Shown piece by piece: positions 5,407 to 15,466 of a stretch of DNA of 33,846 nt. A program made the translations under genes and the position numbers. Source of the stretch: a virus; IMG/VR virus record IMGVR_UViG_3300027971_000138, positions 1 to 33,846 of that record; one strand, written 5' to 3'. Numbering within the stretch: the first letter of the stretch is position 1; each line of letters starts with the position of its first letter. A model generated the notes under the pieces. It was given only the letters and a program-made list of their open reading frames with translations, did not search any database and was not told the DNA's origin.

Positions 5407-5593
5407 AACGTGCAGCTCTTACTTGCATAAATACATCTGCCCAGGTGAAACAAGTTTCAACAACCTTGGTTGAGGTTATCTCTTTCTGGTCAATCATCTT
5501 TAGAACTGCATCTTTAAATGCAAGTTCGCTGAGCAGAGCTATAGCCACATACTCTGTCATGGTCATGTGCTGCATGTTTATATCTTTAGTCAT
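5384..5593 (-). CDS. Hypothetical protein, 69 aa
   Basis: A short helical protein placed between exonuclease and endonuclease I, overlapping both (8 nt and 23 nt). CAGGAAC precedes ATG 5593; later in-frame ATGs exist at codons 7, 10 and 12. It contains Met-rich and Ala/Leu-rich helices (EYVAIALLSELAFKDAVLKM). No motif recognised. Its position suggests part of the nucleic-acid metabolism operon. Confidence 0.58.
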   Translation of the reverse strand: MTKDINMQHMTMTEYVAIALLSELAFKDAVLKMIDQKEITSTKVVETCFTWADVFMQVRAARYAKTKEA

Positions 5594-6266
5594 GTTGTTC
5601 CTGTTGTGTGATTGGTGGTTCCCAACTATCGTTGGGTTTCTGCCAGATGTATAGCAGCTTCATGTTGAGATGGAATCGTTCATCATCGCTATAGAGTTCA
5701 CGGCACTTGTCGTACCACTCTTCAGGCAACAGCTCTTCTAGTGCTCTCTCTGCCTTTACTGGACCAATGCCAGCTACGCCAATGATGTTATCACTACGAT
5801 CTCCAATCAGACTCTGCATGTAGAGAAACTTTAAACCCTGATCCGAGGTTACTTCTGTAAATACTTTCTTTACAAAGTTGTAATGCTTACCTGGGATCTG
5901 TAATAAATCTTTGTCTATGCTGCAAATGACTGTTGTTCCACCTTCCTTGTCTTGTTGTATGCCCATCTCATCGTCTGCTTCGTAGCCGTTACAGATGATT
6001 GCTTTGTGCTGTGTTACTAGGAACTCTCGTACTGCTTGCCAGTGTGTTGGTCGCTCGTCTGGTCTGTTAGCTTTGTAGCTAGGTGCTATCTCCCTACGGA
6101 AATTGTCACTACCTGTTAGGTAAACGCTGTAAGACGTTGCTCCTGTATCAGCTAGTATGTCTTGAATCATCTGGTCAGCCCTGGCTTGAGCTATCCATTG
6201 TTCATCCTCATTAGCTGATGCTGCTCCACGGTAAACAACTATGTCTCCGTCTATTAGTGCTCGCAT
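5586..6266 (-). CDS. 5'-3' exonuclease (FEN/PIN-like)
   Basis: A 226-residue flap-endonuclease-like enzyme. Metal-binding acidic residues occur in the expected order: Asp6 and Asp8 (LIDGDI), YEADDE (Glu96, Asp98, Asp99), SIDKD (Asp118, Asp120), GDRSDN (155-160), then the helix-hairpin-helix GVAGIGPVKAERAL that grips the DNA backbone. Such enzymes remove RNA primers and degrade 5' ends during phage replication, a role filled in T7 by gp6. AAGGA precedes the start. The gene follows a structured intergenic RNA that might control it. Confidence 0.9.
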   Translation of the reverse strand: MRALIDGDIVVYRGAASANEDEQWIAQARADQMIQDILADTGATSYSVYLTGSDNFRREIAPSYKANRPDERPTHWQAVREFLVTQHKAIICNGYEADDEMGIQQDKEGGTTVICSIDKDLLQIPGKHYNFVKKVFTEVTSDQGLKFLYMQSLIGDRSDNIIGVAGIGPVKAERALEELLPEEWYDKCRELYSDDERFHLNMKLLYIWQKPNDSWEPPITQQEQHD

Positions 6267-6923: not shown

Positions 6924-8864
6924 TCAAAGTTCTTTCATATCAAACCAATTTTTACCAATTGACGCTCCTGCATTGAGCTTCAGAGCCAATGGCACTTTAA
7001 ATCTTTCTTCAAAATACTTGTGTGTGTCTTTAAGTATTCCTGTTATCTCCTTTATAAAACCGTCCGCTGCACTTGCTTGGACATCAAACATTAGAGAATC
7101 GTGTATGGTGTTAACCATCTTCACGTTATCTCTGCTTTCTAAACATCTGAAGATAATACCCAACATCATTGGGACAATATCACCAGTTGCTAGACCTTGG
7201 ATAGGGTAGTTTTTCAACTCAGTGGGGCTGAAATTGTAAGTCCTAGAAGACCAACTACTCTCATTAAAATACTCCTTAAACAAAAACTTACGTCCAGTCT
7301 CAGTGTTTAAAACAAACGTTTTTACTTTCTCTCGAAAGCCATGTTCGTCAAGCTCATAAGTTGAGCTTCTCTCCACATCTTCTGCAAACTTAGTGTGCCA
7401 TTCACCTACCTGTGGATAACGTGTGTAGAACACATCCACAAATTTCTTAGCTTCATCTAAGCTACAACCTGCTTGCTTGCTGATAGCCTTAGCACCTGCA
7501 CCATAGATAAGCTGAAACGTTCTAGCCTTGAAAGGTTTCCGCTCTTCTTTGGTTGGTAGTCTACCGAACATAGCTTCATACAGAGCACTGTGTATATCAA
7601 CTCCTCTTTTGATGTCATAGATGAGCTGTGTGTCTCTAGTAACATGTGCTAGAGCTACAACTTCTAGTTGATTGAAATCAACCTCGACAATCACACCATC
7701 ATTAAACCTTGAATTAAAGATTTGTTTGATAGGGTTGTTGCTAATGTTTTGTAAATTAGGATTGGTTGATGACAAGCGACCTGTGACAGTTGCTGTGTGA
7801 TTCAACTTACCATGTATGAAGTCACCTATAACATGCTTGCTAAGCCCTTGTACATAAGTTGAGAGCTGCTTTGATAGCTCACGATACTCCAGTAGTTTCT
7901 CAATGATCTTGATGGCTTCTGGATCGAATGTATGCTTGAGCATGTCATTCAATACAGAGTCATCTACAGATACTTGACCTGTCTTAGCAGATATTTTTTC
8001 TGGATCTGGTGTGTATCTGATGAATGGCTTTATATCTATGGTTTTATCCATGAGCTTGTATTTTGTCTTGCCATTCTTGTATAGACCTACTTCTTCTTTC
8101 ACACGTATCTTCTTCTTACCTCCAAAGAAAAACTGTGACCATTGCTTAGGACTGTTGATGTCTTCGATTGCGTGTTTGACAGACAACTCTTCCAAGTCAA
8201 GTTTGCATTCAACATACTCGTTAACAACTTCTACTGTGTACTCATCAAGCTTTACTTTGTCAATGTGCAGACCATTGAACTGCATCTCTGTTGTTGCATG
8301 TAACGCTTCCATCTGAGAGAGTATGAGTGGTAGCTGATCTTGTTCTATCGCTCTTCCATATTGCTTCATAGCAATCTGTACAGTATTCTGAACATCTTGC
8401 TCTAGATATGGGATTAGTTCTTCAGGTGGAATCTTGTCAGAGCCAAGACCAGCCTGAAAGTATTTTTTAACTCCATCGTCTTTGATAGGCAAGCCATACT
8501 TGATTGACAACTCATCGAGGCTTGAGAACTTAGTCTGTTGAGCACTTAGGATGTACTCTGCCAACTGTGTATCCCAAATCATTCTGCGTTGTAGTTCGTA
8601 CTGCAAGTCAGAGCTAGTCTTGTAGAGATACATCAGATCAAAAGATATGTTGTGTCCACAGATAAAAGCATCTGGCCTTTGTACTCGTATTAAGTATTCA
8701 AACTTTGCTATGTCGTATGTGGTAAATGTATTGGTTACATCCGTGCTGCCACACAATCCAAATGCAATAGCTCTGTTGTCTGGGTGCATAGGATGAGCTA
8801 GTCCTACGTCATTGTTGCCATTGAGTGTTGTTTCAACATCAATAGCTATAAATGTTTTGGTCAT
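6924..8864 (-). CDS. DNA polymerase, family A (T7 gp5-like)
   Basis: 646 residues with both expected domains. The N-terminal 3'-5' proofreading exonuclease shows FIAIDVET (Asp9, Glu11), CGHNISFD (Asp76) and YLEQDVQNT. The polymerase domain shows motif A VEVDFNQLEVVAL, motif B RKPFKARTFQLIYGAGAKA and motif C TIHDSLMFD with the catalytic Asp. The fingers motif RLSSTNPNLQNI is present. It copies the phage genome together with the helicase and primase encoded upstream. Length is near T7 gp5 (704 residues). GGAAAACC precedes the ATG. Confidence 0.97.
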   Translation of the reverse strand: MTKTFIAIDVETTLNGNNDVGLAHPMHPDNRAIAFGLCGSTDVTNTFTTYDIAKFEYLIRVQRPDAFICGHNISFDLMYLYKTSSDLQYELQRRMIWDTQLAEYILSAQQTKFSSLDELSIKYGLPIKDDGVKKYFQAGLGSDKIPPEELIPYLEQDVQNTVQIAMKQYGRAIEQDQLPLILSQMEALHATTEMQFNGLHIDKVKLDEYTVEVVNEYVECKLDLEELSVKHAIEDINSPKQWSQFFFGGKKKIRVKEEVGLYKNGKTKYKLMDKTIDIKPFIRYTPDPEKISAKTGQVSVDDSVLNDMLKHTFDPEAIKIIEKLLEYRELSKQLSTYVQGLSKHVIGDFIHGKLNHTATVTGRLSSTNPNLQNISNNPIKQIFNSRFNDGVIVEVDFNQLEVVALAHVTRDTQLIYDIKRGVDIHSALYEAMFGRLPTKEERKPFKARTFQLIYGAGAKAISKQAGCSLDEAKKFVDVFYTRYPQVGEWHTKFAEDVERSSTYELDEHGFREKVKTFVLNTETGRKFLFKEYFNESSWSSRTYNFSPTELKNYPIQGLATGDIVPMMLGIIFRCLESRDNVKMVNTIHDSLMFDVQASAADGFIKEITGILKDTHKYFEERFKVPLALKLNAGASIGKNWFDMKEL

Positions 8865-8890: not shown

Positions 8891-10153
8891 TTACTCGTAT
8901 CTAGCCCTGATGGGGTCGATGGTTACTAGAAATTGTCCGTGTCTATCTGACTCGACTTGTTTGCTTCCTCCTCCTGGTAGTTTGTTCTTAGGAACATTGA
9001 TGGTACGAATCATTTCTTCTTCGGGACTCTTTGGTTCTTTGTACTTGCCGATTGTTATCACTACGTCTGCTTCGCCTGGTTTGTCAGTCTTGGAGCCACG
9101 CAGTGCATCCAAGCCTATGAATGGTGGATCTTTCATTTCTACTGCTGACGCAGACAATTGTGATGCTGCAATAACTGGGCCATACGATCTTGCAAGTTCT
9201 CTTGCCCACTTGTATATCTTGCCCAGCTTAAGATCCTCACGCTCGTCTGACTTGAAGCCATCAACTTTGTCAAGCTGATCAAAAATAATTAGTCCTGGGT
9301 TAACTTCTCTAAACAATGTCTCAAGATCACGCACGTTGTTCATGTCCTTAGTAACACGTATCTTGTCCTTATCACCACCCATGAGTGTGGTGTATGACAC
9401 CATAGCAGCCTTAGAGTCTGCAATGAGTACCTTACTTTCTTGTCCAAGCGCAGCTTGAACAATTCTAAAGAACACAACTGAAGATTCTTCTTCGTTGTTG
9501 ACCCAGACCACAGGTCTGTCTTTAGGTAGTTGCTGTGCTAGGTAGCTGACTTCGCTTGCTAGAAAAGTGGTTTTACCCACTTCCACACGAGCAGCCACAA
9601 TAACAAAGTTCCCAGTACGGAGAGGGCCAAGAGACCTATTGAGCGCGTCAAGACGCCACTCGTAACCGCTACTAGTAATTCGATCAGCAATAACAGACAG
9701 ATCAGCACTAACAAAAAGTTCATCTTTTTCTATGTACCTTTCGACATCCTTAAGAGCGTTGGTTGCAATGATATGAACGTGCTCTAGATCACTAGAGCCT
9801 TCCTTGACTTTCTCACACTCCTCCATGATGAGGGCTAGGTAGTCTAACTCAATAAGAGTCTTGATTACTTCTTCATGTGCATGGTGTGGAACAAACGTCT
9901 TTGCTTTGGTAAGCATCATACGTAGCTTCACAATGGAATCATCTGTAAGACGTTTACTTTGATCTGCTATTAGGAACGCACTGAAGGAGTCCCAAGCAAA
10001 CTCTGTAACTGAGGGAAATGTTTTGTAGTATTTGTCCATCCCGTCAAGGATGGTATTGGTTTCTTTCATAACTACATGCGGTTTGATGTACCGCCTGTAC
10101 TTTGAGAGGTTCTCTTTGCTCTTAGCGCAAAGGTATAGAACATCGTAGTCCAT
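8891..10153 (-). CDS. Replicative DNA helicase, DnaB/gp4 helicase-like
   Basis: 420 residues. The RecA-type core has Walker A ARVEVGKTTF (188-197), the conserved VVWVNNEEE after strand 2, Walker B GLIIFDQLDKVDG (about 288-299), and a downstream AASQLSASAVE motif like the Gln sensor of DnaB-family helicases. The N-terminal 150 residues are helical and may mediate hexamer or primase contacts. It unwinds DNA ahead of the polymerase using ATP. In T7 primase and helicase are fused in gp4; here they are separate genes. AAAGGA lies just upstream of ATG 10153. Confidence 0.92.
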   Translation of the reverse strand: MDYDVLYLCAKSKENLSKYRRYIKPHVVMKETNTILDGMDKYYKTFPSVTEFAWDSFSAFLIADQSKRLTDDSIVKLRMMLTKAKTFVPHHAHEEVIKTLIELDYLALIMEECEKVKEGSSDLEHVHIIATNALKDVERYIEKDELFVSADLSVIADRITSSGYEWRLDALNRSLGPLRTGNFVIVAARVEVGKTTFLASEVSYLAQQLPKDRPVVWVNNEEESSVVFFRIVQAALGQESKVLIADSKAAMVSYTTLMGGDKDKIRVTKDMNNVRDLETLFREVNPGLIIFDQLDKVDGFKSDEREDLKLGKIYKWARELARSYGPVIAASQLSASAVEMKDPPFIGLDALRGSKTDKPGEADVVITIGKYKEPKSPEEEMIRTINVPKNKLPGGGSKQVESDRHGQFLVTIDPIRARYE

Positions 10154-10372: not shown

Positions 10373-11173
10373 TTAAATTAGTATGCTCACAAGCTCTGCT
10401 GGTGTGCATTCTTTGGGTTCTTTATCTATGCCAAATAAGGCAACATTTATGTTGTCTGGTAAGTAGTGTGTTAGTTTCTTGTATAGCTTTGTTGTTCCCT
10501 CCATTCCTGCTTCATCTGGATCTAACCAAATAAATATAGTTTCAATGCCTAGCTCATAGATTTGAGCTAGTGTTCTGTCTGACAGATTTGTTCTTAGTAA
10601 CGCTACGGAGCTAAGACCTGTGTTTTTGTGTACTCTGTAAGCACTGAGGTAGTCTTCTGTTATGACCAATGTTTTATTGCCTTTGTAGAACCAGCTTGAT
10701 TCGCCTTTGGCGTTGTTGTTGGTGTAGTAGGTGATGTACTTAGGCTCTGCCTTTAGGTTGCGTACCTGCCAGCCTATCGGCTGTTGTTCTGGGTTGTGTA
10801 GGGTTAAGGCTACTTTGTGCCTTTCCCCTTCTATGCCGTGGAAGTTATCGTCTTCTGTGTTGCAGTAGTTTGTTCTGAGCCACACTTCACCTTCGATGCT
10901 TAGCTTTGCTAGTTGTGGTTTAGCTGGTGATTTCATTGACCCTGTATCTTCTTTTTTACTTATCCAGGTTAATAATCTGCCTTGGGATAGTCCGTCTGAA
11001 ATATGGCCAGACTCGTTGCAATGGTGGCAGTAAGCTACTAATCCCCTGTCTGAACGTTTGATGTATAGCCTACGTTTAGTATCCACACCTGCTGAACATC
11101 CATCATGGTTAATATGGATCTGCTGCCCCATGTTACTAGGAGCATTTTTAAGTATTAGCTGTTTGTTTATCAT
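10373..11173 (-). CDS. DNA primase with zinc ribbon and TOPRIM domain
   Basis: 266 residues. An N-terminal zinc-binding module uses HDGC (His23, Cys26) and CHHC (Cys49, Cys52). The TOPRIM part shows LVITEDYLSAYRV (Glu173) and FIWLDPDEAGM (Asp218, Asp220), the acidic metal-binding residues of primases. It makes short RNA primers for lagging-strand synthesis and is the counterpart of the N-terminal half of T7 gp4. The first zinc ligand pair is His-Cys, not the usual Cys-Cys. The ribosome binding site is weak, and a hairpin lies just upstream, so expression may be restrained. Confidence 0.9.
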   Translation of the reverse strand: MINKQLILKNAPSNMGQQIHINHDGCSAGVDTKRRLYIKRSDRGLVAYCHHCNESGHISDGLSQGRLLTWISKKEDTGSMKSPAKPQLAKLSIEGEVWLRTNYCNTEDDNFHGIEGERHKVALTLHNPEQQPIGWQVRNLKAEPKYITYYTNNNAKGESSWFYKGNKTLVITEDYLSAYRVHKNTGLSSVALLRTNLSDRTLAQIYELGIETIFIWLDPDEAGMEGTTKLYKKLTHYLPDNINVALFGIDKEPKECTPAELVSILI

Positions 11174-11227: not shown

Positions 11228-12364
11228 TTAGATTGTGTTTTCTGATGACCCATATACCTTAGCAAAAAGCTCGCCAGCAACTTTACGTTGTGTGTCGTTC
11301 AATTTGTTTAGATATACAAGCGTAAATGCTGCTTTGAGAGTAGAACCTGCTGAGACTTTCCTACAGATACCAAACAAGGTACGAGGTGAAACAGTAAGAC
11401 TAAACTGACCTGACTTGTAGCCTTGCCTAATAAGGTTGGCTAGTTTAACCAGTTCTTTAGCTGCTTTGCCTGTTACTGTAGTAGGGTATTTACTAGTAAT
11501 GATCTTTTCTTCCACTGCTGCTGGTAAATAGTCAACGAATACTGCTGTACCAAACCTGTCTAGAGTTGCTGAGTTCTGTACGTTAGTACCTGCATGAGCA
11601 CCTGTGTCATCACCCTGACCTTGTGTGTTACCAATAGCAACAAGCCTAAAGTCCTTGTGAGGAATGATTTGCTTGTCCTTGGTACTACCTGGCATCTCCT
11701 TCAAAAAAAGCTTGCCATCGTCCTCTAAGAGCCACTGTAGACCCATTGAGATCTCTGGAGGAGTTACATCCCACTCATCCCATGCAAAGACAGCACCATA
11801 CTTGACTGCTTCTGTTGCTGCACCATCTACCCAGATTGTTGAACCATCCTTAGCTGTTAACTGACCAAAGATCATTGAGGAATCCATATCCCCAGTGCAA
11901 TTAACCCGAACAAAAGGACGATAAGTACGAGCACACAACTGCTCAATAAGACTAGATTTACCAGCCCCTGTAGGACCGAAGCAAAGTACTTTCTCATTTA
12001 ACTCCCATGCTTGAAGAATGTCAGAGGCAAGTTTTGGATCAATGACATAGGTTGAATTGATACTAGGAACAAATGCAGCTATACGCTCATCCCAATCAGA
12101 TTCTTGGAACACAGTGATTCCAAAATCATGGTCAACTTTCTGACCGATAACCTCAGAGAGGTAGACTTGATTAGATTTAAGATCTGTTGTAGGTGATCCT
12201 GCCATAAGTTCTTCGACTGTTTCGCATTCTGTAATTGTTTCATGTGAAACATCTGTTGATGTTCCTGCTGCTTTAGGTGGTTTACGTTTGTCAAGAGCTT
12301 CTTTCAAAGCTTTTTTAACAAGATCTTCCACCTTCGGTGATGGTGGTTTTACTACGGTTGTCAT
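11228..12364 (-). CDS. AAA+ ATPase, CobS/MoxR-like
   Basis: 378 residues. Walker A FGPTGAGKSS (129-138), Walker B AVFAWDEWDV (191-200), a sensor-like AIGNTQGQGDD and a probable arginine-finger segment NSATLDRFG place it with the CobS/MoxR branch of AAA+ ATPases. The N-terminal 60 residues are charged and unstructured. The branch acts as ring-shaped remodelling motors that work with VWA-domain partners; CobS itself pairs with CobT in cobalt insertion. Here the gene overlaps a CobT-like VWA gene by ATGA. With no CobN or cobalamin genes in view, a role in protein remodelling is more likely than cobalamin synthesis. Confidence 0.85.
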   Translation of the reverse strand: MTTVVKPPSPKVEDLVKKALKEALDKRKPPKAAGTSTDVSHETITECETVEELMAGSPTTDLKSNQVYLSEVIGQKVDHDFGITVFQESDWDERIAAFVPSINSTYVIDPKLASDILQAWELNEKVLCFGPTGAGKSSLIEQLCARTYRPFVRVNCTGDMDSSMIFGQLTAKDGSTIWVDGAATEAVKYGAVFAWDEWDVTPPEISMGLQWLLEDDGKLFLKEMPGSTKDKQIIPHKDFRLVAIGNTQGQGDDTGAHAGTNVQNSATLDRFGTAVFVDYLPAAVEEKIITSKYPTTVTGKAAKELVKLANLIRQGYKSGQFSLTVSPRTLFGICRKVSAGSTLKAAFTLVYLNKLNDTQRKVAGELFAKVYGSSENTI

Positions 12365-14157
12365 TTAAGAATTTTCCTTTCTATTAACTCAATCAACTTA
12401 CTTGGGATTTCATGTGGTTCTTTGACAACACTGTTAGCTTTGTAGTAGTACGTGACTGCATCACTACATAAACCTAAGCCGTATATGTCAACAGACTTTG
12501 ATGCTTCTATCTCTTTGATTACTTTCTCTGTGAATTTCTCTAGGCCACTTGATGACTTTGATGCTGCTGGACAACCATCAGACATCACAATCAATAGCTT
12601 CTTTTTCTCTTTACGCTTGTTCAAACGATCATAAGCCCACAAAATATTCTCACCATCGGGGTTACCAACCATAAACCCACTACTAAGAGCGAAATATTCT
12701 TTAAGGCTATCATCGTTTACCCTTAGATCATTGAAGCCTTTGTATACAAACATCAATGGTTTAGGTTCTGAGAATCCTGCACTAGCATCAGTGAAGCCAA
12801 GTATCTCAAGAGGTATGTTGAGTGTTGAACAAACTTCATTAACAAGTAATGTAGAAGCCAAAGCGTTTAGCACTTTGTCTCCACCCATTGAACCAGACAT
12901 GTCTACCAATACTGTGATAGCAGCATCCAGTGTCTTGTTGTCTATCTTGTTCTTAAACACACGCTCATTGAAGCCTGGTGCATTGAAACAGATACGAGAC
13001 AGTCGAGACTGATCTAGCTTTCCTTTCTTAACACCGTACTGAGTCTGTGACTTAGCTCTGATCTGAATGAGTCTACGTACCTGCTGTGCAAAGTTCTCTT
13101 GTGATACAAGGTTTGGAGTTATCCGTTTCTCATATTCTTGCAAGAAGCTTCTTCTGTAACTACTAGCCTCAAAGTATTTGTCTTCACCCCTTCTACGTGG
13201 GTAATCAACAACAATGAACTCTGAGTAGTCGGTCATGTCCCACTCACCTCTAGAACCAGTTGGTGCAAAGTTAACACCTGTTTTGCTCATCTCTGATCCT
13301 TCTTCAGGCATAGACATTGAGAAGGACTCTATGTCTTCAGGTGTGAGAATGATGTCTATAACTTTGTACTCTGTAGATGGTGCTACTTCACCTTCACCAT
13401 CAGACTTAACAGCTTCAGCAACCTCACCAGCTGCTTCTCCATCAGTTTTCTCTGTGGTCTTACCATCCATCTTGCTATCACCACTACCTTCTTTGGGTTT
13501 AGCTGGGATTGGTAGTTCTTCAGGACATTCATCACCAAGCTCTTTTAGGATGTCTTCTGCTAGTTTGTATGTAGCTTCAGTACCTATCTTTTTATCCAGT
13601 ATCGAATGACAATGAACAAGACGATCAGAGAAGTTATTAAGAACATCCATTACCTTTTTATTGGGAGTTGTTGATGATGCAGCAAGTCCAATCTTTGGAA
13701 AACTAGCTGCTGTTAGATCAGACTCCCAACACATCAAGGCTACAGTGAGTTTTGCAATGGCTGATGTATTCTTACTAGCACGAGCAAGGATTTGCTCTAC
13801 TAGCATTGAACTACAGTCATCCCAGTTTTCTCTGAAACCCTGATATTCCTTGGCTTCTATGACATTGATACGGGAATCTTCCATGAAGTTCCATACAAAC
13901 ATCAAGATGCCTTTAGGATTAAGGTCTTTGTTCTTAAGAACATCAAAGCTGCTAAAGCGATCATGTGCAACCTCGTGGTCAACAGATGCCATCAGCTGCT
14001 GTAGTTCTATGTCAGTGGTCTTATGAGTAATCCTAGGTAGATAGATGGTTTTACCATCATGCCTAGGCTCATTAGCGTCTTCAAATACTATAGATATACC
14101 AGCCCTACCTGCACTGGCTCTAATGTATTTCTGAACTTCAATAGCTTTTGTAAGCAT
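12361..14157 (-). CDS. CobT-like protein: metallopeptidase-like N-terminus and VWA domain
   Basis: 598 residues. Near the N-terminus HEVAH (61-65) fits the zinc protease motif HExxH. A disordered acidic linker (about 205-260) follows. The C-terminal third is a von Willebrand A domain with a MIDAS site: DMSGSMGG (about 416-423), a Thr in LGFTDAS and an Asp in VMSDGCP. VWA proteins with such N-terminal domains act with MoxR/CobS ATPases, which use them to hold or direct a substrate. The start overlaps the upstream stop (TAATG) and the stop overlaps the ATPase start, so the three genes are tightly coupled. Confidence 0.82.
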   Translation of the reverse strand: MLTKAIEVQKYIRASAGRAGISIVFEDANEPRHDGKTIYLPRITHKTTDIELQQLMASVDHEVAHDRFSSFDVLKNKDLNPKGILMFVWNFMEDSRINVIEAKEYQGFRENWDDCSSMLVEQILARASKNTSAIAKLTVALMCWESDLTAASFPKIGLAASSTTPNKKVMDVLNNFSDRLVHCHSILDKKIGTEATYKLAEDILKELGDECPEELPIPAKPKEGSGDSKMDGKTTEKTDGEAAGEVAEAVKSDGEGEVAPSTEYKVIDIILTPEDIESFSMSMPEEGSEMSKTGVNFAPTGSRGEWDMTDYSEFIVVDYPRRRGEDKYFEASSYRRSFLQEYEKRITPNLVSQENFAQQVRRLIQIRAKSQTQYGVKKGKLDQSRLSRICFNAPGFNERVFKNKIDNKTLDAAITVLVDMSGSMGGDKVLNALASTLLVNEVCSTLNIPLEILGFTDASAGFSEPKPLMFVYKGFNDLRVNDDSLKEYFALSSGFMVGNPDGENILWAYDRLNKRKEKKKLLIVMSDGCPAASKSSSGLEKFTEKVIKEIEASKSVDIYGLGLCSDAVTYYYKANSVVKEPHEIPSKLIELIERKILK

Positions 14158-14594
14158 TAGGCAAACAACATTTTTTTAACTTCGGAATGGATAGTCTTAG
14201 CATCAAGATGCCCTGGGATTTCCATAAGAAGTTTGAGAACTTTGTCAATGTACTGTTGGTTAGTAACTTCTTCTTTGTCAGGTTTGGTTTCCTTGATCTT
14301 GTTTTGAAGATAAGTCTTACCGCAATAGCTTCCGTTATCATCAACTAAGCTAATGCTGAGCTTCATAGCAGTATGGATAACTGATTTAGCAGATCGCCAA
14401 GGTCCAGGCATAGAACTTATTTCAAAGTCTTTCTTGATCAGCTTCTCAGTGTCTTTCAATTCCTTTGTGAAGGTGTCTACAGTGCTATGCGTATACGCAA
14501 CCTGTATCATCTTCTCAAAGGTGCTAGTAGCTGAAGCATCTGAAACTAACGATTCAGTTGCAGCAGCGTACAAGGGGGAGGAAGTAGTTTCCAC
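14157..14594 (-). CDS. Unknown third member of the ATPase/VWA module, 145 aa
   Basis: Starts at GTG 14594 with GGAG eight bases upstream. The protein is mainly helical: an Ala/Ser/Thr-rich N-terminus, a helical core (residues 25-90, with STVDTFTKELKDTEKLIKKD) and a C-terminal helical part ending in KKMLFA. No family recognised. It shares one base with the CobT-like start, so it is probably translated with it and could be an adaptor or substrate of the module. Confidence 0.62.
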   Translation of the reverse strand: METTSSPLYAAATESLVSDASATSTFEKMIQVAYTHSTVDTFTKELKDTEKLIKKDFEISSMPGPWRSAKSVIHTAMKLSISLVDDNGSYCGKTYLQNKIKETKPDKEEVTNQQYIDKVLKLLMEIPGHLDAKTIHSEVKKMLFA

Positions 14595-14665
14595 TTAGTT
14601 ATCTCCACAGTTACGGCAAGATTGCCACCATAGCAAGCTCGTTAGAACTTGCTACAGAAGTAAAC

Positions 14666-15466
14666 TTATTTGTCAGCATTAAACATACTTGGTGCTACGA
14701 TTTCACCGTCTTCACCAAGATCTTCGATTGATTCAAACTTCTCAGCTGTAAAACCAGAGTCTTCATTTTCATGTAGCCCACGATTGATGTACTCTTCTTT
14801 AAGTTCATCATCAGACATATCTTTGTATCCAGTTACACCATTCATAGCCATAGCTTCTATGCAAGATTTGAGATCATCTATAGTTCCTCTAATCTCATCC
14901 TGTAATAGTTTGTTGATAAGTTCATCTCTAGTTAGATCTACTTCTGGAACATCAAAGTTAAACATCTCTTGAATTTCTGTAGGAGCTTCTCCAGTGCTGT
15001 ACTGATGATCTTCACCATCTTTGAATACACCACAGAATCCCATACCTGGTTCGTAGTAGTAGTTTGTAATGTCAAAGCCCATAGCCACTAGTTTGAAACA
15101 AGCAGCCTCTGGTGGTGACCAAGCAGACATATAGTTAACTGTGAACTCAGCTTGGTTCTCGTTGTATGGAGCATTGTCTTCACCTTCGTCATAGCCAATG
15201 TCCCACTTAGTACCCCACTCATTGACACAGTAAGTGAACCAGTCTTGGTATCCATACTTCTTTTGGTTAGCTTCTTGCTGTGCTACTAGTAACACTTGTT
15301 CAGGATTGTCATCAGCTCCAACACGACCAGCAGTTATACACAGCTCATGTGGAATAGGAATAAAGTCTTTAAGGAATCTTCGATCCATCCAAGCATCCCG
15401 TGCTCGTTTGATCATCGAAGGATCTGTATGACGTATAGTCATTTTGTTTTCACACCAATTTGGCAT
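14666..15466 (-). CDS. Api92-like protein with ferredoxin-like fold
   Basis: 266 residues beginning MPNWCENKMTI, a signature of the Api92/YubB-like family seen in phages and plasmids. The typical motifs FIPIP (after KDF), YCVNEWGTKWDI and FTVNYMSAWSPP follow. The family fold is ferredoxin-like; its role is not established. The C-terminal 100 residues are acidic and helical and look like an added tail. AAGG precedes the ATG. It follows a run of tiny genes and precedes the VWA module after a 71-nt gap. Confidence 0.78.
   Translation of the reverse strand: MPNWCENKMTIRHTDPSMIKRARDAWMDRRFLKDFIPIPHELCITAGRVGADDNPEQVLLVAQQEANQKKYGYQDWFTYCVNEWGTKWDIGYDEGEDNAPYNENQAEFTVNYMSAWSPPEAACFKLVAMGFDITNYYYEPGMGFCGVFKDGEDHQYSTGEAPTEIQEMFNFDVPEVDLTRDELINKLLQDEIRGTIDDLKSCIEAMAMNGVTGYKDMSDDELKEEYINRGLHENEDSGFTAEKFESIEDLGEDGEIVAPSMFNADK

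Follow-up and report, generated by a model that had tools for sequence, protein, structure and literature searches.

What does a pair of cobaltochelatase-like genes do in a phage whose record encodes no CobN? The question is raised by a freshwater phage, an ICP2-like podovirus represented by the IMG/VR virus record IMGVR_UViG_3300027971_000138, whose 33,846 bases were analyzed in full and are referred to here as the window. Genes for a third protein, termed X, a CobT-like protein, and a CobS-like ATPase lie on the minus strand at 14594-11228, overlapping head to tail, upstream of the genes for primase, helicase, and PolA. Our comparisons indicated that this module is not likely to be a cobaltochelatase and that it most likely encodes a MoxR-type AAA+ ATPase plus a metallopeptidase-VWA remodeller. 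This conclusion was drawn from the HExxH motif of the viral members, which is absent from true CobT, from scores far under the family cut-offs, and from the lack of CobN. The three open reading frames (ORFs) described in the original prediction were all borne out, as were their junctions, ATGA between CobT and CobS and TAATG between the X stop and the CobT start. The features of the module are as follows.

14157-14594, minus strand: X, 145 aa, GTG start, with a conserved MPxxxRSAKSV...GKTxLxxxIK core
14603-14606, minus strand: GGAG, ribosome-binding-like, 8 nt 5' of the X GTG
12361-14157, minus strand: CobT-like protein, 598 aa, with an N-terminal zincin-like domain, an acidic linker, and a C-terminal VWA domain
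13528-14157, minus strand: N-terminal domain of the CobT-like protein, residues 1-210, predicted gluzincin-like
13963-13977, minus strand: HEVAH, residues 61-65, putative zinc ligands and catalytic Glu; HExxH in 50/52 viral members
13876-13890, minus strand: NFMED, residues 90-94, putative third zinc-ligand motif NxxED
12880-12903, minus strand: core of the metal-ion-dependent adhesion site (MIDAS), DMSGSMGG, residues 419-426, completed by D527 at 12577-12579
12361-12364, minus strand: ATGA, overlap of the CobT stop and the CobS start, read from the sequence
11228-12364, minus strand: CobS-like MoxR/AAA_5 ATPase, 378 aa
11954-11977, minus strand: Walker A motif GPTGAGKS, residues 130-137 of the CobS-like protein; Walker A in 52/52 relatives

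The CobT-like protein matched CobT_C (2.5e-26) and phrog_1576/phrog_17276. Conservation was assessed in 52 viral CobT-like proteins from IMG/VR and isolates, dereplicated at 90% identity. E62 was invariant (52/52), and H61 and H65 were each retained in 50 members, while residues 63-64 varied, so that the motif appeared as HEVAH, HEVGH, HEVDH, HETSH, HETEH, HETCH, HECYH, or HEAGH. A motif that the original prediction had not listed, NxxED, lies approximately 25 residues C-terminal of HExxH and is conserved as strongly, with N90, E93, and D94 each kept in 51 of the 52 members. The MIDAS residues D419, S421, S423, and D527 were conserved in every member, and the position of T456 was occupied by T in 43, S in 7, N in 1, and C in 1. 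Conservation of the HExxH ligands, NxxED, and MIDAS, while the middle residues of HExxH vary, points to an active-site pattern rather than chance. HEVAH at residues 61-65 and a complete MIDAS (D419-M-S421-G-S423 with D527), both claimed earlier from the window alone, are present in the protein and retained in its viral homologues (50/52 and 52/52, respectively). HExxH was also found in the 'peptidase' of Synechococcus phage Syn19, Pelagibacter phage HTVC008M, Haloarcula virus HCTV-16, and Ochrobactrum phage OC. Homologues of the module were detected in approximately 100 IMG/VR loci. Together with the conservation of H61, E62, and H65 in 50-52 of 52 members and the recurring gene order, this number places the module well beyond chance.

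The N-terminal 230 residues gave a confident model (predicted local distance difference test score [pLDDT], 91) that placed HExxH and NxxED in separate helices, in that order. The highest-probability PDB match of this model was the minigluzincin selecase 4qhi (two chains; probabilities, 0.94 and 0.84), whose E-values of 0.64 and 1.5 make the gluzincin fold call supportive rather than proof; the structure search thus gives the zincin fold of this domain weak support.

Comparison with true cobaltochelatase separated the viral proteins from the enzyme. The CobT-like protein scored 108 bits against TIGR01651 (equivalog cut-off, 759), and the CobS-like protein scored 128 bits against TIGR01650 (equivalog cut-off, 558). 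We found no HExxH in any of 33 distinct true cobaltochelatase CobTs from Alphaproteobacteria, taken mostly from the loci of the best TIGR01651 matches; the stretch aligned to HExxH in these proteins is typically D(S/A)xALRxxHH, whereas the window protein carries HEVAH. No CobN was found in this record or in 21 relatives of 40-47 kb; these are viral records only, and a host CobN is possible. CobNST resembles the module in its homologous AAA+ and VWA subunits and differs in that true CobT lacks HExxH and the partner CobN is absent here. The earlier view that the module is not a cobaltochelatase is probably right: we observed neither CobN or cobalamin genes nearby nor unconserved motifs and unlinked genes among homologues, the two outcomes that it had named as contrary to itself.

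In an unrooted tree built from the VWA part with the zinc-site columns excluded, the true CobTs clustered in a single well-supported group, all lacking HExxH, and the protein from the window fell within a well-supported podovirus group with HExxH in 23/23 members. HExxH is widely spread among viral and bacterial relatives, which favors loss of the zinc site in CobT over its gain in viruses; we infer this direction from sequences placed on an unrooted tree. The CobT-like proteins of Caballeronia/Paraburkholderia were considered as true CobTs and excluded from the 33, as the tree sets them apart, beside an HExxH-bearing protein of Oligoflexales. L136, L138, and L141 are bacterial VWA proteins that group with true CobT although they are only distantly related. 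Two of them, L138 and L141, each have a CobS-like gene as a neighbor, and no CobN was detected in their genomes; they may represent additional MoxR-VWA systems.

The CobS-like protein matched AAA_5 (3.8e-16) and phrog_249 (3.7e-66), and its PDB matches included CobS (1.7e-35) and, also among the best, Midasin (4e-35). The module thus combines an AAA+ ATPase with an intact Walker A motif, a complete MIDAS, an N-terminal HExxH, and adjoining genes, as in a MoxR/metallopeptidase-vWA pair. CobS-like matches in Listeria and Gordonia had no HExxH-VWA neighbor on either tested side and are a separate matter. In Midasin/Rea1, RavA-ViaA, and NorQ-NorD, an AAA_5/MoxR ATPase likewise works through a MIDAS-bearing VWA domain. 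To our knowledge, none of these systems carries an active-site zincin domain on its VWA protein.

X is a new family, predicted to be all-helical and found only in genomes with the module. Its profile matched 94 ORFs at E <= 1e-3, with MPxxxRSAKSV and GKTxLxxxIK as the core, and the predicted structure was all-alpha with seven helices (pLDDT, 89.5). X had no credible Pfam, PHROG, NCBIfam, or PADLOC family, and its model had no PDB fold match and, in BFVD, good matches to uncharacterized phage proteins only. It was not found in cultured phage records by tblastn with four diverse members, and none of 24 tested ICP2 proteins matched its profile (hhalign). As for the VMAP-C component of the VMAP/vWA-MoxR ternary conflict systems (PMC7159879), X had no Pfam match, although no search aimed at VMAP was made. 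All 40 loci retrieved with X as the query also encode CobT. Among 33 dereplicated podovirus loci with enough upstream sequence, from which loci fetched via X were excluded, X was present at E <= 1e-3 in 30, two more gave weak matches with the RSAKS motif, and L103 had none in the sequence examined. The third gene, originally proposed as a partner of the pair, accordingly belongs to a genuine linked family. X adjoins CobT in most relatives and lies approximately 2 kb away in L093 and L099. L089 has a second X-family gene approximately 3.8 kb upstream of the CobT-adjacent one (1602-2123 and 5468-6004), with a diverged core of RVQKN, not RSAKS.

The genomic context of the module links it to DNA replication. 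The minus-strand arm of the window encodes a 5'-3' exonuclease, PolA, a DnaB-type helicase, and a Toprim primase, and the structural arm (terminase, portal, capsid, and tail fibers) is on the plus strand; the module lies, as first described, in the replication arm. The genes downstream of it are the following.

10373-11173, minus strand: Toprim DNA primase, directly downstream of the CobS-like gene
8891-10153, minus strand: DnaB-type replicative helicase, by family matches
6924-8864, minus strand: family A DNA polymerase, ~34% identity to the polymerase of Vibrio phage ICP2 (Zobellviridae)

The gene upstream of X (14666-15466) encodes a DUF1281_C (Api92-like ferredoxin-fold) protein. The order X-CobT-CobS recurs among relatives, in line with the conserved synteny that had been proposed as a check, and CobT and CobS overlap or sit within tens of bases of each other in nearly all of them. 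Among the dereplicated loci, 40 had 2 kb or more of downstream sequence, and a primase followed the module in all 40 of these and a helicase in 39; these loci come from a single lineage and therefore count as one observation of conserved order. In other virus groups, DnaE follows the pair in SSU5, nickie, Rhizobium and Stenotrophomonas phages, and phage Cyrano. In Syn19 (L198, 1534-4840) and phage OC (L203, 1767-4885), the pair is inside a T4-like replication cluster, with gp46 before it and gp45/gp44/gp62 after it. Primase, helicase, and polymerase genes follow the pair in Cobavirinae T5S1 and also adjoin that of ICP2. That replication genes neighbor the pair in several virus groups makes a role in replication, or early in infection, more likely than one in virion assembly.

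Four other functions have to be weighed against these data. The viral CobS and CobT could join a host CobN for cobalt insertion and thereby raise the B12 supply for nucleotide reduction, as published for haloarchaeal and other tailed viruses (PMC8651126). The two proteins are real homologues of CobS and CobT, and the ribonucleotide reductases (RNRs) of several relatives best match adenosylcobalamin-dependent models (four classified: L208, L209, L210, and L211). However, 15 of 22 records, including the window, have no detectable RNR, one classified relative (L204) has a class I enzyme, and one Phyllobacterium genome encodes a true CobT alongside the phage-type one. Considering also that viruses keep the HExxH that true CobT lacks, that the equivalog cut-offs are far out of reach, and that CobN was not found, we regard an auxiliary cobalamin function as very improbable. 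Metal insertion of another kind, with the HExxH domain binding metal without cleaving protein, would have a precedent in NorQD, a MoxR/VWA pair that drives metal insertion (PMC13036017), and HExxH can bind metal in principle. Against this stand the invariance of the HExxH Glu (52/52), which metal binding alone does not need, and the lack of an apparent metalloenzyme client; we consider a NorQD-type chaperone improbable.

The remaining alternatives concern the target. The pair might fold or clip structural proteins as a chaperone or protease of virion assembly. Such a role has been suggested in group 2.2 jumbo phages, and an archaeal virus reportedly requires a MoxR-vWA pair to assemble its tail (PMC7824862). 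In the window, ICP2, SSU5-type, Rhizobium, and T4-like phages, however, the genes stand among replication rather than structural genes, and the window module is on the strand opposite the structural arm, making an assembly role unlikely. Host takeover or counter-defence, in which the pair would unfold or cleave a host protein early with X as target adaptor, accords with the early-region position, with the variable and lineage-restricted nature of X, as expected of a host-facing adaptor, and with the spread of the module through unrelated phages and many phage-plasmids. Yet replication genes adjoin the module again and again, which suggests a core role, and we rate takeover as rather unlikely. 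A defence system was also considered and rejected, as PADLOC gave only generic, ATPase-level matches, which likewise speaks against counter-defence. The original proposal of a remodelling or host-takeover machine therefore stands in its first part, a remodeller being most likely, and is weakened in its second, since replication linkage in unrelated virus groups points at least equally to DNA replication.

The reading that we prefer, and hold to be slightly more likely than not, is that of a phage MoxR-type AAA+ remodeller whose VWA partner would bear an N-terminal gluzincin-type metallopeptidase domain, acting early in the replication phase with X as adaptor or substrate. Several observations weigh against it. 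The selecase match is below significance by E-value. The HExxH histidines have been lost in nickie (DSEIS; L003, 3777-5861) and ANB28 (DREVS; L007, 3885-5870), which keep MIDAS and the genes, suggesting that proteolysis is not universally needed; the proteolytic output envisaged earlier for HExxH would be in keeping with a site conserved in 50/52 members, from which these two depart. In CRP-810, the pair lies close to the end of the genome, and the surrounding stretch that was viewed contains no replication gene; gene neighborhood in phages is also a hint of function only. Finally, X is absent beside the pair in ICP2, SSU5, Rhizobium, Cobavirinae, CRP-810, and cyanophage groups, which argues that it is a lineage-specific partner rather than a core part.

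Under the preferred remodeller reading, CobS-like proteins would form a ring on which the VWA domain of the CobT-like protein docks, the MIDAS metal would grip an acidic residue of the target, and ATP hydrolysis would strain or pull the target. The zincin domain might then clip the target or hold it via a bound metal. X, translated first from a shared message via the overlapping start and stop codons, would most likely be the adaptor or substrate. The machine would act early, in the genome-replication phase, and its target would most likely be a host protein or a component of the replication complex. We infer here the assembly of the ring, the binding of metal, the peptidase activity, the timing, the target, and the role of X; the straining of the target by a ring-driven VWA domain is modelled by analogy on NorQD and Midasin. 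In NorQD, the VWA partner sits atop the AAA+ ring, with its MIDAS as the proposed site for gripping the client (PMC13036017).

Modules of this kind are already known. Group 2.2 jumbo phages encode a MoxR and metallopeptidase-vWA pair, for which virion assembly with peptide processing was proposed (Iyer et al., 2021; PMC7824862). The window pair resembles it, by description of ASV44728/ASV44729, in pairing, in a tailed phage, a MoxR-type AAA+ with a vWA protein that bears a metallopeptidase domain at its N terminus, and differs in occurring in ICP2-like podoviruses of roughly 45 kb, among replication genes, with X as a third gene. A study of archaeal tailed viruses found cobST widespread in tailed viruses, proposed that host CobN is hijacked, and judged the cyanophage 'peptidase' annotation mistaken (2021, PLoS Biology; PMC8651126). 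Our results support reading these proteins as peptidases and count against the cobalamin reading of that study, and the gene context speaks against assembly as the main role. The viral cobST of SSU5 phage-plasmids, ICP2, Kyanoviridae, and haloarchaeal viruses is a homologous CobT-CobS pair with HExxH and MIDAS, lies mostly near DNA polymerase or clamp genes, and is usually annotated as cobalamin or porphyrin biosynthesis; X was not found beside the pair outside the clade of the window. What is added here is the absence of the zinc site from true CobT, the replication linkage in several virus groups, and the X family; within partial literature coverage, we found no paper stating any of the three.

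Among plasmids, 942 records encode a CobT-like protein, mostly SSU5-like phage-plasmids of approximately 110 kb from Klebsiella, Escherichia, and Acinetobacter, and these proteins are usually named porphyrin biosynthesis or cobalamin CobT. The CobT-like gene of phage Cyrano (L008, 3702-5810) is annotated as dimethylbenzimidazole phosphoribosyltransferase, a mix-up with another protein named CobT.

We suggest tentatively, as a possibility short of even odds, that the CobST of many tailed viruses and phage-plasmids is an ATP-driven metalloprotease or remodeller for viral DNA replication, that the group of the window gained X as a dedicated adaptor or substrate family, and that cobaltochelatase CobT is a relative whose zinc site was lost. 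Viral surveys list 'CobS/CobT' as a B12 auxiliary metabolic gene, and hundreds of phages carry a cobalamin or porphyrin label; the residue test, HExxH in viruses and not in true CobT, indicates that the B12 label is probably wrong. These genes would instead encode an AAA+ coupled metalloprotease acting beside replication genes, a prediction testable in cultured ICP2, SSU5, and cyanophages, and X may be a lineage-specific handle on the target of the machine.

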